Shown one piece after another: positions 10,579 through 43,519 of a DNA stretch of 46,030 nt. A model generated the notes under the pieces. The model made no database searches and had not been told where the DNA came from. It saw nothing but the letters and a program-made list of their open reading frames with translations. Within the stretch, counting starts at the first letter, position 1. Each line of letters starts with the position of its first letter. Location of the stretch: the NCBI GenBank assembly GCA_026991225.1, contig JALXCB010000133.1, positions 1 through 46,030 of the forward strand, in the 5' to 3' direction. Made by a program: the position numbers and the translations under genes. This DNA comes from Anaerolineae bacterium (GTDB lineage Bacteria; Chloroflexota; Anaerolineae; J102).

Positions 10579-10620
10579 CTGGCAACCTCGGAGGAGAGGG
10601 ATTGGGGATCAGGATGAGGG

Positions 10621-10844
10621 CTGATTGACTGACAAAACGCGTTTTGGTCTGCTGTGGTCGCCTATGCTGTCGACTGAAGTCGGACTCTTCAGGCCTGCGG
10701 CCAGTGGACGGCCTCCGCCATCCATGTTCATGATGGAAATCAGGTCGACGAAGGTCGACCACAGGCGCGAAGCGCCTAAAGAGCCCGAGTTTACTCGGTG
10801 AATACGGTCGGAAAGGAAAGACTCAAGATTTGTCAGTCAACCAG
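10621..10844 (+). mobile_element. Family B element, copy 1, at the dnaX stop codon
   Basis: 224 bp. The ends CTGATTGACTGACAAA and (reversed) CTGGTTGACTGACAAA are inverted repeats. It is flanked by perfect 9-bp direct repeats GGATGAGGG at 10612-10620 and 10845-10853. The interior is an array of small hairpins: GACTGAAGTC, GGCCTGCGGCC, GGACGGCCTCCGCCATCC, GGTCGACGAAGGTCGACC, GGCGCGAAGCGCC and CCGAGTTTACTCGG. It has no coding capacity. CTG ends and 9-bp duplications are known from IS4-type elements such as IS10 and IS50; a link to them is inference. Confidence 0.9.
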
Positions 10845-12500
10845 GGATGAGGGTTTGAGCACGCCGCCCCAGTCGTCTAACGCGCGGCGCACGACGGGGT
10901 GGTCGGTGAGGGGGGAAGCAGGATCAGGATTTGGATCGGGATTGGGGTCAGGATCGGAAGCGGGCGTTGGGGCGGAGGCGGCGTCGGGCTGGGATGCGAC
11001 GGACGCGGTGGGAAGCGGGTCGTTTTCGCCCAGGATCACGGCTTCCATGGGGCGGCCAAGCACCTGGGAGAGGCCCTTGTTCACGTCGTCGATGCCCGCC
11101 TGCACCTGGTTTCGGTGAAATTCGTATTTGAAGCGGATGTAGAACTTGCCGCCCTGGATGCCGGCAGGTTCGCCCGAACGAAGCATGGCCTGAAGTTTGG
11201 CGTTGATGCCGCGCATGACGCGCAGGAGCTGCTTCCACACGCCCGCCAGCTCCGCATCGATGGGGGCTGCAGGTTTCGAGGGAGGCGGGACGGATCCGGT
11301 TGTGCGCTTTGGGGGCGCTTTTTTCGGCCTGGGCGCGGGCCGAGGACTGGAAACCGGCCGGGAGGCCGGTTTGGAAACCTGTTTTTCAACAGGTTTTTCC
11401 CCGGGCGCGGTCATGCCATCCAGGTTGAGGGCGTCGAGCAGGGCCAGCTCCACGGGCAGATACCCGGCGAAGGGCGTCTTCAGGGCCTGCCCCGCCTCGG
11501 TGAGGGCCCGAATCGTATGCAAAAGCTGGGGGGCGGTGAATCGGGCGGCCTGTTCCTGGGCTTTTGCCAGCAAGCTGTCGGGCAGGTCCACCAGGTTGGG
11601 GTCTTTGCCCACATTGAGGAGCAGCAGGATGCGCAGTTGGTCGATGAGTTGATTGACGAACTGGCTGAGTTCGATGCCCTTGTCGATGAGTTCATGCAGC
11701 CGGGTGAGCACCTCGGCCGGGTCGCCTCCGGCCAGCGCGTCCACGAATTCGCTGATGGCCAGGCCCGAGACCATGCCCAACACATCCCGCACCAGCTCCT
11801 CGTCGATCTCCGTGTGCCCATAGGCCGCGACCTGGTCCAGCAGGCTGATGGCGTCGCGCATGGAGCCAGTGGCGCTGCGAGCGATGATGCCCAGGGCCTC
11901 GGGGGTGACGGTCAGGCCCTCGCGGCGGGCGATTTCGTTGAGATGCTCGCTGATCTGCCGGGTGCTGATGCGATGGAAATCGAAGCGCTGGCAGCGGGAG
12001 AGAATGGTGGCCGGTATCTTGTGGGGTTCGGTGGTGGCGAGGACGAAGATGACGTGCGCGGGCGGCTCCTCCAGGGTCTTCAACAGGGCGTTGAAGGCCG
12101 AGGTGGAGAGCATGTGCACTTCGTCGATGACGTAGACCTTGTAACGGGCCTCAGAGGGAGCAAAGGCGACCTTCTCGATGAGCGACCGCACGTCGTCCAC
12201 GCTGGTGTTGGACGCGGCGTCGATCTCGATGAGGTCCATGAGCCGCCCCTGGTTGATGGCTGTGCAGATGGGGCACGCGTTGTCGGGCCGGTCATTCACG
12301 TCCTCGGCCAGACAGTTGACGGCCTTGGCCAGGATGCGGGCGGTGCTGGTCTTGCCTGTGCCGCGCGGGCCCGTAAAAAGATACGCGTGGCCGATCCGAT
12401 CCTGTCGCAACGCGTTGCGCAGGGTCTCTGCCACGTGCTTCTGCCCGACCACATCCTCGAAGGTCTGGGGACGATATCGGAGATAAAGGGCGTCGGTCAT
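10833..12500 (-). CDS. dnaX: DNA polymerase III subunit gamma/tau
   Basis: A 555-aa protein; the start at 12500 (TDALYLRYRPQTFEDVVGQ) is the family's usual N-terminus. An AAA+ ATPase of the clamp loader: Walker A GPRGTGKTS (about 44-52), zinc-binding cysteines ending NACPIC, Walker B DEVHMLS, sensor residues near LSRCQRFDF. Domain III follows, then a Pro/Lys-rich linker (about 380-425) and a C-terminal tau-like domain. The frame is open a further 90 bases upstream, but that part is family B repeat. The last residues LVD and the TGA stop are encoded by the end of a family B element. Removing the element restores a TGA immediately after KPSS. Confidence 0.95.
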   Translation of the reverse strand: MTDALYLRYRPQTFEDVVGQKHVAETLRNALRQDRIGHAYLFTGPRGTGKTSTARILAKAVNCLAEDVNDRPDNACPICTAINQGRLMDLIEIDAASNTSVDDVRSLIEKVAFAPSEARYKVYVIDEVHMLSTSAFNALLKTLEEPPAHVIFVLATTEPHKIPATILSRCQRFDFHRISTRQISEHLNEIARREGLTVTPEALGIIARSATGSMRDAISLLDQVAAYGHTEIDEELVRDVLGMVSGLAISEFVDALAGGDPAEVLTRLHELIDKGIELSQFVNQLIDQLRILLLLNVGKDPNLVDLPDSLLAKAQEQAARFTAPQLLHTIRALTEAGQALKTPFAGYLPVELALLDALNLDGMTAPGEKPVEKQVSKPASRPVSSPRPAPRPKKAPPKRTTGSVPPPSKPAAPIDAELAGVWKQLLRVMRGINAKLQAMLRSGEPAGIQGGKFYIRFKYEFHRNQVQAGIDDVNKGLSQVLGRPMEAVILGENDPLPTASVASQPDAASAPTPASDPDPNPDPNPDPASPLTDHPVVRRALDDWGGVLKPSSLVD

Positions 12501-12545
12501 GGGGCAATCGTAGCATTTTTGGCCGCGGGCGTCAAACCATTCTGA

Positions 12546-12770
12546 CTGATTGACTGACAAAACGCGTTGAGGTCTGCTTAGGTCGCACATACTGTCGACT
12601 GAAGTCGCACCATGGCAGACCTGCGGCCAGTGGACGGCCTCCGCCGTCCATTTTCATGCTGGAAATCAGGTCGACGAAGGTCGACCCCGGGCGCGAAGCG
12701 CCTAAAGAGTCCGAGTTTACTCGGTAAAAGCGGGCGGAAAGGCAGACTGCAAGATTTGTCAGTCAACCAG
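12546..12770 (+). mobile_element. Family B element, copy 2, upstream of dnaX
   Basis: 225 bp with the same ends (CTGATTGACTGACAAA / CTGGTTGACTGACAAA) and the same hairpin array as copy 1, in the same orientation. Perfect 9-bp direct repeats CCATTCTGA lie at 12537-12545 and 12771-12779. The insertion is 36 bases before the dnaX start codon, so it occupies the position expected for the dnaX promoter or leader. Confidence 0.9.
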
Positions 12771-12784
12771 CCATTCTGATTTGA

Positions 12785-27058: not shown

Positions 27059-27577
27059 GTAACTACTAAACTAAACGCATTTTGAAATCAGGTGTTTTCG
27101 GCCTCGGCCACCCGGAGCTGAAGCTCCGGGCTACGAAACGACGCCGGGTGAACCCGACTTCCTACGGCGCGCGACCTGCACCGTAGCCCCATTCATGGGG
27201 CGTCGTTTTTAGCCCGCAGGTTCACCTGCGGGCGGCAGCGCGGCCAGAGAATCGCCTTTCATGGATGATCCAATGCACACCAAAAGCCTTGGTTTCAATT
27301 TGCTTTCAGTTTACTAACGTAGCAAGGTCGAAAACCACGAAGACACGACGACACGAAGGCACGAAGGGGAAAAGTGGCAGGTGGCAGGTGGCAGGTGGCA
27401 AGTAGCAGGTGAAAAACCTCGCAGCCAGAAGGACTTGCCACTTGTGACCTGCAAACCTGCAAACCTTGTATTGTCTTCGTCCCCTCCCCCTGAGCGTAGC
27501 TCGGGGGAGCCGGAGGGGGGCCGAGCCTTCGTGGCAAGGCATTTTCGATGCCGAACCAGGCTACCTTCAGCAGTTAC
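27059..27577 (-). mobile_element. Composite: family A element carrying a nested family D element
   Basis: 519 bp. The outer ends GTAACTACTA and CAGTTAC are flanked by perfect 8-bp direct repeats CAAGTTTT at 27051-27058 and 27578-27585. Inside, close to the left end, sits a 243-bp family D element; without it the outer element is about 275 bp. The outer body holds a CACGAAG hairpin plus short repeats GTGGCAGGTGGCAGG and a CGGGGGAGCCGGAGGGGG word. The right end supplies the stop codon of the 27574-27807 gene. Confidence 0.82.
27069..27311 (+). mobile_element. Family D element, nested copy
   Basis: 243 bp, ends AACTAAACGC and GCTTTCAGTT (inverted), TA on both sides. Nearly identical to 40066-40310. 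The interior has small hairpins: GGAGCTGAAGCTCC, CCCATTCATGGGG and GCCCGCAGGTTCACCTGCGG. TA flanks are a feature of IS630/Tc1-like targets, an inference here; a 4-bp ACTA duplication is an alternative reading of this copy. Confidence 0.75.
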
Positions 27578-32028: not shown

Positions 32029-32119
32029 GATTTCCTCCTTGATGAAATCAAGCTTTGAGAAGCGGCGAAGAAACGATAAGGGATTGATGCGGATATGGTT
32101 TATTTTTTAATCATATCTT

Positions 32120-32261
32120 GTAACTACTAAGGTCATCACCGGAAAACCACTAAGAACACGAAGACACAAAGGCACAAAGGGCAATTTATACATTTTCTCT
32201 TCGTGTTCTTAGCGCCTTTGTGCCCTTTGTGGTTTGTTAACCGGGGTACGTTAGCAGTTAC
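32120..32261 (+). mobile_element. Family A element with 8-bp target duplication
   Basis: 142 bp. The ends are GTAACTACTAAGGT and ACGTTAGCAGTTAC. Perfect direct repeats CATATCTT lie at 32112-32119 and 32262-32269. The body is a hairpin with CACAAAGGCACAAAGG and CCTTTGTGCCC arms. Near twin of 43010-43151. Confidence 0.9.
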
Positions 32262-32354
32262 CATATCTTCAAGATTATAGCAGTTCTTGGTCAAATCGAC
32301 AATGGGTTCGAAAAGAAGCTGCCAAAATCTAATGCAGTTCTAATGTGATTGGAC

Positions 32355-33743: not shown

Positions 33744-33815
33744 GGGTGTGTCCCAATTTTTTTGGCAAGACCTCCGGGAGGTCAATTGCGTCCGCCAACT
33801 ATCTGGGACGCACCC
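33744..33815 (+). mobile_element. Family C element, minimal form
   Basis: 72 bp. The ends GGGTGTGTCCCAATTTTTTT and (reversed) GGGTGCGTCCCAGATAGTTG are inverted repeats. Near-perfect flanking direct repeats GAGCAAAG (33736-33743) and GAGCACAG (33816-33823), 7 of 8 matching. The core is a single palindrome GACCTCCGGGAGGTC. It is 44 bases from the mfd stop. Confidence 0.75.
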
Positions 33816-39916: not shown

Positions 39917-40065
39917 GATGGGGTGCTCTGTCTGGAGGATGCAAAGGGCTTGAGCATCTGGTGTTGGGGGTTCTGACATGCAACCATCTAGTCTAACACA
40001 GAAAAAAGGAGGTGGGCAAAACAAGGGCGTCTTTCACGTGAATCAGCGATTATCGCGAATAATTA

Positions 40066-40310
40066 AACTAAACGCATTTTGAAATCAGGTGTTTTCGGCC
40101 TCGGCCACCCGGAGCTGAAGCTCCGGGCTACGAAACGACGCCGGGTGAACCCGGCTTCCCGCGGCGCGCAGCATGCGCCGTAGCCCCATTTATGGGGCGT
40201 CGCTTTTAGCCCGCAGGTGAACCTGCGGGCGGCGGCGCGGCCAGAGAATCGCCTTTCATGGATGATCCAATACGAACCAAAAAGCCTTGGTTTCAATTTT
40301 GCTTTTAGTT
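40066..40310 (+). mobile_element. Family D element, single copy
   Basis: 245 bp with ends AACTAAACGC and GCTTTTAGTT (inverted), TA on each side (40064-40065 and 40311-40312). The interior has hairpins GGAGCTGAAGCTCC, GCCGGGTGAACCCGGC, GCCCCATTTATGGGGC and GCCCGCAGGTGAACCTGCGG. It lies upstream of the secreted gene at 40435. Confidence 0.82.
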
Positions 40311-41814: not shown

Positions 41815-43020
41815 ATGAACCTCGCCCGAGCCGTGAAGGAACGCGCCCTGGCCCTGGGCTTCGACCTGGCCGCCATCGCGCCCGCGGGCCCCAGCCCCGA
41901 CTGGGAGCGCTATCGCGTCTGGATCGAACGAGGGTGGGCGGGGGAGATGGGCTATCTCGAACGTCATCTCGAACCAAAACGCGACCCGCGCGCCTTGCTG
42001 CCCGAGGCCCGCTCTCTCATCCTTGTGGCCTTGAACTACGCCCAACAGCTCGACCCGGCCCTGCTGGAAGACCCGAGCCGGGGGCGGATCGCCATCTACG
42101 CCTTGGGCCGGGACTATCACAAGATCATGCGCAAGGCCCTCATCGAGCTGGACCGCTGGCTGGCCGCGCAGACCGGGCGCAGCACCCGCGGTCGGGTCTT
42201 CGTGGACAGCGCGCCCGTGCTGGAGCGATCCTGGGCGGCCCGCGCCGGTCTGGGCTTCATCGGCAAAAACGCGTGCCTCATCCATCCCGAGCTGGGCTCC
42301 TGGCTCTTCCTGGGCGGATTGCTCGTCCCCGAAGTCCTCCCGCCCGACCCTCCGCCCTCGCTCCTCCCGCCCGACGAGACGGCGCCCGGGCGCAGCGACT
42401 TCGTCTGGCGTTTCGAGGATGGACGCACGGGGACATGCGGGCGCTGCACCCGCTGTCTGGATGTCTGCCCCACCGACGCGTTGGTCGCCCCCCGCCAACT
42501 CGACGCCCGCCTCTGCATCTCCTACCTCACCATCGAACAGCGCGGCCCCATCCCCATCGAACTACGCCCGAAGCTGGGCAATTGGGTGTTCGGCTGCGAC
42601 CTGTGTCAGGATGTCTGCCCCTGGAACCGCCGCACTCGGCCCGCGTCCCATCCCCAACTGCAACCCCATCCCGACCGCATCGCGCCGCCCCTGCTCGACC
42701 TGCTGGCGTTGGATGAGACGGCCTTTCGCCATCGTTTCGCGGGCAGTCCAGTGATGCGGGCCAAATGGGAGGGGTTCATGCGCAATGTGTGCGTGGCCGC
42801 AGGCAACTGGGGCGATCCCGCCGCGGCTGAGCTCTTGCACCGCCACCTGTGGCATAGCCCCCTGCCGGTGGCCGAGCACGCGGCCTGGGCCCTGGCCCGT
42901 CTGCGCGATGGCGCGGGCATTGCACTCTTGGAAGAAGCGGTGAAACACGTTCGGGAATCGGAACGAAAACGGTTCGTTGTCCAGGCGTTGCTCGAATGCG
43001 GAAAGTCTCGTAACTACTAA
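41815..43020 (+). CDS. queG: Epoxyqueuosine reductase
   Basis: A 401-aa protein. It reduces epoxyqueuosine to queuosine in tRNA, using cobalamin and two [4Fe-4S] clusters. The N-terminal part carries GRDYHKIMRKAL and FVDSAPVLERSWAARAGLGFIGKN. Cluster motifs are CGRCTRCLDVCP and CDLCQDVCPWN. A C-terminal HEAT-like region follows. The start at 41815 has GGAG close upstream. The last two codons and the stop (AAC TAC TAA) belong to a family A element. Without it the protein would stop at TGA after the same Arg. Confidence 0.94.
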   Translation: MNLARAVKERALALGFDLAAIAPAGPSPDWERYRVWIERGWAGEMGYLERHLEPKRDPRALLPEARSLILVALNYAQQLDPALLEDPSRGRIAIYALGRDYHKIMRKALIELDRWLAAQTGRSTRGRVFVDSAPVLERSWAARAGLGFIGKNACLIHPELGSWLFLGGLLVPEVLPPDPPPSLLPPDETAPGRSDFVWRFEDGRTGTCGRCTRCLDVCPTDALVAPRQLDARLCISYLTIEQRGPIPIELRPKLGNWVFGCDLCQDVCPWNRRTRPASHPQLQPHPDRIAPPLLDLLALDETAFRHRFAGSPVMRAKWEGFMRNVCVAAGNWGDPAAAELLHRHLWHSPLPVAEHAAWALARLRDGAGIALLEEAVKHVRESERKRFVVQALLECGKSRNY

Positions 43021-43151
43021 GGTCGTCACCCGAAAACCACTAAGAACACCAAGACACAAAGGCACAAAGGGGAATTTATACATTTTTTCTTCGTTTTCTT
43101 AGTGCCTTTGTGCTCTTTGTGGTTTGTTAACCGGGGGACGTTAGCAGTTAC
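43010..43151 (+). mobile_element. Family A element at the queG stop codon
   Basis: 142 bp. The ends are GTAACTACTAAGGT and ACGTTAGCAGTTAC. Perfect direct repeats AAAGTCTC lie at 43002-43009 and 43152-43159. Nearly the same as 32120-32261. Its left end supplies the queG stop. Confidence 0.92.
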
Positions 43152-43239
43152 AAAGTCTCGTTGAAAAACGACACGGATAGAAGGAAACACGGATAAAATT
43201 CTTTCCGCATGATCTCGGACTTCATAGCCAAAAAGAATT

Positions 43240-43436
43240 GGGTGCGTCCCAAATGAGTTGGCGTCAGCATCCTGGCCGAGTGAACTCGGGCGTTTTAGGC
43301 GCTTCGCGCCCGTGGTCGACCTCCGTCGACCGGAACATGGGACGGCGAAGGCCGTCCACTGGCCGCAGGCCTTAAGTGTTCGACTTTAGTCGATGAGAAC
43401 AGCGGTGCAACGCTTCAACCGAAAAAGGACACACCC
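43240..43436 (+). mobile_element. Family C element with the family B hairpin cargo
   Basis: 197 bp. The ends GGGTGCGTCCCAAATGAGTT and (reversed) GGGTGTGTCCTTTTTC are inverted. Perfect 9-bp direct repeats AAAAGAATT lie at 43231-43239 and 43437-43445. The interior has CCGAGTGAACTCGG, GGCGCTTCGCGCC, GGTCGACCTCCGTCGACC, GACGGCGAAGGCCGTC, GGCCGCAGGCC and GACTTTAGTC: the family B array in reverse order. Confidence 0.85.
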
Positions 43437-43519
43437 AAAAGAATTGCGATGAGAATACCCCTTGTAAATTTATGCCCGCAGAGGTTTCGCAGTTCCTGGC
43501 TCCCGAATGCTTGTCGGGC

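Follow-up and report, generated by a model that had tools for sequence, protein, structure and literature searches.

Introduction

TnpA proteins of the IS200/IS605 type and TnpA-REP proteins bind hairpins in single-stranded DNA. In REPtrons, the REP-BIME/RAYT systems, a Y1 transposase gene present once or in a few copies goes together with inverted hairpin units that are multi-copy elsewhere in the genome (PMC2817692, PMC3116915, PMC3733652). REPs are defined by a GTAG/GTGG foot (PMC6006769), and Di Nocera et al. 2013 described GTAG repeats in Chloroflexi, with RAYT genes that have either REPs or TIRs at their flanks (PMC3733652). TnpA-Y1 proteins of subclass 1.2 (Quentin et al. 2018) have the motifs DH[IV]H and Y---Q--HH, a length of about 148 aa, a low copy number and no IS behaviour; they occur mostly in Cyanobacteria and Bacteroidetes, and no REP has been reported for them (PMC6006769). 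The PATEs of Haloquadratum are multi-copy derivatives of a Y1 element that has lost its transposase gene, so that its terminal hairpin regions have become contiguous; they are devoid of TIRs and TSDs, and MITEs insert into them (PMC3119063). DDE-mobilised bacterial MITEs such as ERIC, NEMIS and Nezha have TIRs, fixed-length TSDs and many copies, but no ORF.

Here we describe a hairpin array, termed alpha, from the draft genome (3.87 Mb, 201 contigs) of an Anaerolineae bacterium (GCA_026991225.1). The window is the whole stretch that was analysed, 46,030 nt of contig JALXCB010000133.1, which is one of the 201. In its workings, array alpha resembles a REPtron as well as a PATE, without being exactly either. 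As in REPtrons, a Y1 gene of low copy number is accompanied by inverted hairpin units dispersed through the genome; unlike REPtrons, alpha has three hairpins per arm, its Y1 protein is of the IS200 class, and most of the arrays in this genome lie within TIR transposons with TSDs. Whereas PATEs have neither TIRs nor TSDs, the alpha unit in the window has both, as cargo, and the nesting known from Haloquadratum is reversed, the array being inside the MITE (PMC3119063). It differs from ERIC, NEMIS and Nezha in that its interior is a conserved array common to unrelated ends and tied to another transposase class. A literature search, which was not exhaustive, returned no report of Y1-associated arrays, REPs or REPINs as cargo of several TIR families.

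Features of the element and its relatives in the window

The C1-type MITE is 197 bp long, is exactly bounded by its TIRs and a perfect 9-bp TSD, and sits between two convergent genes (Table 1). Its array consists of six hairpins, H1 to H6, which span positions 43276-43393 and form a quasi-mirror of two three-hairpin arms (H1-H2-H3 and H4-H5-H6). The first-pass annotation had placed the same hairpin cargo, in reverse order and with other terminal repeats and duplications, in a second element family. All six hairpins of the C1 element do recur in both B-type elements of the window (88-90% complementarity over 59 nt). The reverse order, however, reflects strand orientation only, as B copies are found on either strand, with H1 invariably towards the same element end. 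The TIRs and the TSD sequences of the two families differ, but the length of the duplication, 9 bp, is common to both. A further element has C2-type ends and no alpha array, i.e., the ends are reused for other cargo.

Table 1. Coordinates of array alpha, its carrier and related elements (positions in the window)
Feature	Position	Strand	Remarks
C1-type MITE with hairpin array alpha	43240..43436	+	TIR and perfect 9-bp TSD
Left TSD of C1 MITE	43231..43239		AAAAGAATT
Right TSD of C1 MITE	43437..43445		AAAAGAATT
Left TIR of C1 MITE	43240..43249	+	GGGTGCGTCC
Right TIR of C1 MITE	43427..43436	-	GGACACACCC
Hairpin H1	43276..43289	+	CCGAGTGAACTCGG
Hairpin H2	43298..43310	+	GGCGCTTCGCGCC
Hairpin H3	43314..43331	+	GGTCGACCTCCGTCGACC
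H3/H4 spacer	43332..43339		Array position that holds the transposase gene in Y1 loci L228, L235 and L246
Hairpin H4	43340..43357	+	GGACGGCGAAGGCCGTCC
Hairpin H5	43361..43371	+	GGCCGCAGGCC
Hairpin H6	43380..43393	+	TCGACTTTAGTCGA
B-type MITE with alpha on minus strand	10621..10844	-	TIR CTGATTGACTGACAAA/TTTGTCAGTCAACCAG
TSD of B-type MITE 10621-10844	10612-10620 and 10845-10853		GGATGAGGG
B-type MITE with alpha on minus strand	12546..12770	-	TIR CTGATTGACTGACAAA
TSD of B-type MITE 12546-12770	12537-12545 and 12771-12779		CCATTCTGA
C2-type ends, no alpha array	33744..33815		72 bp; one gamma-type hairpin GACCTCCGGGAGGTC

The end of one B element (10829-10844) provides an in-frame stop, TGA within CTGGTTGACTGAC, to the open frame 10833-12590, which resembles dnaX and has B elements at both its ends. 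Two other pairs of dispersed repeats were found in the window, each 92-93% identical: 27067-27285 with 40064-40282, and 32116-32268 with 43006-43158, the latter with stretches like AAGGCACAAAGG and CACTAAGAACAC.

Copies, end families and target duplications

A 21-base core of alpha, searched with at most three mismatches, gave 97 matches in the genome compared to two for the reversed control, and the TIR-pair pattern gave 26 compared to none for its control; chance is excluded as the source of the repeats. Core matches were taken with their flanks and the ends were then assigned, which yielded about 95 alpha copies with ends of families B (n=31), C1 (n=13), D (n=13), C2 (n=11) and E (n=6), while fewer copies had D2 ends, mixed ends, a single end that could be recognised, or no such end. 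Alpha is thus found inside B, C1, C2, D, D2 and E ends. The GGGTGYG ends of C1, C2, D and D2 show a visible relationship. Judged from end sequence and duplication length, alpha appears to be carried by at least three unrelated end systems, namely CTGRTTGACTGAC (9-bp TSD), GGGTGYG (9 bp) and GTGAGCGTC (3 bp).

The TSDs of families B, C and D are 9 bp long and mostly perfect. Family E has the ends GTGAGCGTC.../...GACG-TAC and a TSD of 3 bp, which reads TTG, TAC, TAA, TTA, TTA and TAA in the six copies of this genome (L018, L029, L031, L035, L041, L050); many more 3-bp duplications of this family were found in a sister genome. Lengths of 4 or 5 bp were rejected because the fourth base often differs. 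With TIRs and a TSD of fixed length, the carriers of alpha have the features of DDE-type MITEs. The draft assembly yielded no autonomous transposon bearing B, C, D or E ends. Profiles for IS4-type DDE transposases (PF01609) and ISKra4 (NF033572), chosen because end sequence and TSD length pointed to them, had no match in this assembly either. Multi-copy transposons are easily lost from draft assemblies. Plasmid and phage collections contained no match to the array, even at distant sensitivity.

Ends and cargo are separable both ways: B ends also enclose two further hairpin arrays, delta and epsilon, and C ends also enclose beta arrays (205-228 bp) and gamma arrays (about 120 bp). Mosaic copies exist as well. 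One of them (L061) is a C1 element that shares 96.5% identity in its interior with a B element located some 115 bp from it, and in another (L036) a B element has a D-type interior. The nearest core lies in the copy's own end family for 70 of the 75 copies with intact ends and in another family for the remaining five, which suggests that each family arose mostly from one capture and that the exchange of arrays between end families is real but occasional.

A second palindromic element of about 70 bp (TCTCCCCCGC..GCGGGGGAGA type) is nested in some alpha arrays, either inside H2 (L113, L114, L115, L143) or between H4 and H5 (L029, L035, L073, L103). It occupies the same site in B and C2 vehicles, which may reflect either hairpin-targeted insertion or spread by conversion.

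Y1 transposase genes and their cognate arrays

A Y1/HUH transposase of 145 aa, bracketed by alpha, is encoded at two loci, C23 (L227) and C167 (L228). It matches PF01797 (Y1_Tnp) with an E-value of about 1e-22 and scores over the cut-off of NF033573 (NCBIfam IS200) but below that of the NCBIfam REP-associated profile. The motifs DHVH and Y---Q--HH identify it as a TnpA of the HUH type with a single tyrosine (Y1). The two genes are only about 79% identical, and multiple near-identical gene-bearing copies, as expected of IS200/IS605 elements, are not present. Motifs, length and low copy number place the predicted protein in TnpA subclass 1.2; unlike the reported members, it comes from Anaerolineae (Chloroflexota) and its gene has conserved hairpin arrays on both sides.

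At C167 the order is H1-H2-H3-gene-H4-H5-H6. Since the gene is placed exactly between H3 and H4, taking it out of the locus would leave just the array; the gene may, however, have been gained by the array rather than lost from it. Two half-arrays likewise flank the gene of L229 (C128). When MITE cargo was compared by BLASTN with all five Y1 loci, alpha matched only C23 and C167 and beta matched only C128. The gamma hairpin occurs 11 times around the RAYT gene of C112 and is absent from the other Y1 loci. By these matches, the three MITE cargos alpha, beta and gamma correspond to three resident Y1 systems. The arrangement is that of a REPtron in that a Y1 gene is flanked by its own palindromes, and that of a PATE in that IS605-type terminal palindromes occur without the gene, the full array being the two halves joined. 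Unlike in REPtrons, the alignment of alpha arrays contains no conserved GTAG/GTGG foot; GTAG is present beside one beta hairpin, and gamma goes with a class-2-like RAYT, both of which recall REPtrons.

In two species (L023 of this genome, on C23, where the gene is at L023:1038-1475, and L220 of JALWZT), the alpha-type Y1 gene is next to the same formylglycine-generating-enzyme-like gene, so that its locus looks vertically inherited and not freely mobile.

Distribution across Chloroflexota

A scan of named genomes detected the array in Anaerolineae, in MAGs of other Chloroflexota and in a single MAG that carries the label Halieaceae. Of 396 genomes of the class, 58 contain matches to the array model and 104 contain matches to the Y1 protein. 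Arrays lie within about 150 nt on both sides of 15 of the 16 Y1 homologues that are at least 51% identical (L231-L246), and on one side of the remaining one; the association weakens yet holds down to about 40-45% Y1 identity. In two of the other genomes (L235, L246) the gene lies inside the array as at C167, whereas outside these three loci it lies between complete arrays. Across genera, the array sequence varies in step with its Y1 gene.

Within the same genus, arrays are found in TIR elements (L262-L265, L268); beyond it they are mostly standalone or tandem. This contrast favours the view that the arrays came first and were packaged later. Ends of the type GGGACTGTATCA with a 9-bp TSD surround alpha-like arrays within the genus (L179/L268). 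In another family, ends of the type GTAACTGTTCAGC with an 8-bp TSD surround an alpha-like array (L290), possibly an independent capture. In the Halieaceae-labelled MAG (L222, JAAENL010000519) and in genome G084 (L234), the array-flanked Y1 gene adjoins a gene resembling HsdR of type I restriction systems; the Halieaceae-labelled occurrence and the neighbour at L234 may be due either to horizontal transfer or to a mis-binned Chloroflexota contig.

Conservation of the fold

Pairwise divergence among 65 distinct arrays is 3.7% in stems, 12.8% in loops and 39% in spacers. Pairing is kept in 97.6% of their stem cells, and both-side changes occur in six pairs; none of 500 shuffles reached the observed pairing and paired changes, and sliding the partners destroys the signal. 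At 75 places from other loci and genomes, in an alignment that was fitted to the array model and hence leans towards it, 97.1% of cells pair, whereas shuffling lowers this to 85.2%, and both-side changes occur in 21 of 34 pairs, a count that never exceeded 10 in 300 shuffles. In vehicles of families B, C1 and C2, stems change more slowly than spacers and TIR/subterminal DNA by a factor of roughly 3-7; in the young D family the sequence classes differ little. Compensated changes are found in H3 (A-T/C-G/G-C, varying between copies and between genomes), H6 (C-G/T-A/A-T) and H1 (G-C/T-A). The GTTTAC/GTGAAC difference, which the first-pass annotation had taken for a compensated stem change, is a loop change. 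Its wider claim of selection on the fold is partly supported: the aligned copies covary, divergence inside and outside the stems is unequal, and stem conservation is strong. These data do not, however, separate selection from palindrome-correcting mutation.

The stems could accordingly be kept by mutation, with template switching at hairpins repairing quasi-palindromes and the arrays being inert passengers. In two copies (L081, L100) the H4 loop is inverted (GGAG to CTCC/CTGC) with the stem intact, a mark expected of template switching during replication and possibly a trace of it, so that palindrome repair may contribute to stem upkeep; the lack of strand preference among mismatches (see below) would agree. 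Palindrome repair alone, on the other hand, would not yield loops as conserved as stems, as observed in family B (1.6% vs. 2.7%), nor would it account for an array sequence that tracks its cognate Y1 gene across genera. We regard mutation as the sole keeper of the stems as unlikely, though it is the most serious of the alternatives.

Proposed origin of the array and alternative explanations

We consider it probable that the alpha cargo is a gene-less (miniature) Y1/HUH transposase element, similar to REPs and PATEs, that is nested in DDE-type MITEs and sometimes swapped between them by recombination. The observations behind this are the architecture of the array, its bracketing of the Y1 gene, its packaging in at least three TIR systems, the mosaics, and the conserved, covarying stems. 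By analogy with TnpA of IS200/IS605 and TnpA-REP, the Y1 protein would bind or nick the alpha hairpins as single-stranded DNA and may have copied and spread the arrays in the past. Arrays would then have landed between the TIRs of DDE-type transposons, whose transposases would amplify the array-carrying MITEs in trans and probably move most copies now, and recombination or conversion between neighbouring copies would let arrays swap ends. What keeps the stems may be continued action of Y1 or the host on the folded single strand, or else their repair by palindrome-correcting replication errors. The first-pass annotation was right that the cargo is a separate module which moved between sets of ends, as alpha occurs in six kinds of ends, in mosaics, standalone or in tandem outside the genus, and around its own Y1 gene; it did not recognise the cargo as part of a Y1 transposase system.

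It is improbable that alpha marks one ordinary MITE family in which ends of common descent drifted apart around a retained interior, without any module having moved. The related GGGTGYG ends and the predominance of nearest cores within the own end family agree with such a history, but the B, C and E ends have dissimilar sequences and make TSDs of 9, 9 and 3 bp, ends of the same kinds also enclose beta, gamma, delta and epsilon, arrays without ends exist outside the genus and beside Y1 genes, and mosaics are present.

Slightly less credible still is an array that is a selected folded RNA (a small RNA, terminator or stability element) with incidental mobility. The stem conservation and covariation would suit it, as would the position of the window copy between convergent genes, the usual place of REP-like terminators. 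G-T and A-C mismatches are, however, equally frequent (15:14 and 33:42), with neither strand preferred, so that the fold is not kept as a one-strand RNA, a function we judged unlikely on this balance. Moreover, the array brackets an HUH transposase gene and matches no Rfam family, the Rfam scan of the window having returned two tRNAs only.

That the Y1 gene is an intruder into pre-existing MITE arrays, with no functional tie to them, is very doubtful: the gene is inside the array at only three loci and between complete arrays elsewhere, as an intruder might be, but alpha and beta are laid out alike around their respective Y1 genes, without either array matching the locus of the other, the association persists to about 40-45% Y1 identity, and most arrays outside the genus have no TIRs.

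Implications

With the alpha cargo read as a miniature Y1 element, its packaging explains how the same hairpin interior comes to lie behind unrelated ends. At least three arrays (alpha, beta and gamma), each tied to a different resident Y1 gene, are packaged in transposons. Whether they represent a class with dual mobility, in which resident HUH (Y1) arrays are repeatedly captured and exchanged by unrelated DDE-transposon ends and can move both by single-strand and by cut-and-paste transposition, and in which multi-hairpin arrays are the cognate DNA of TnpA-Y1 subclass 1.2, is in our judgement evenly balanced. For this uncharacterised subclass, alpha would be a candidate substrate that is clear, covarying and present in dozens of genomes. 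More generally, carriage by other transposons may account for the spread of REP-like hairpins, whose own Y1 transposases do not seem capable of moving as units.
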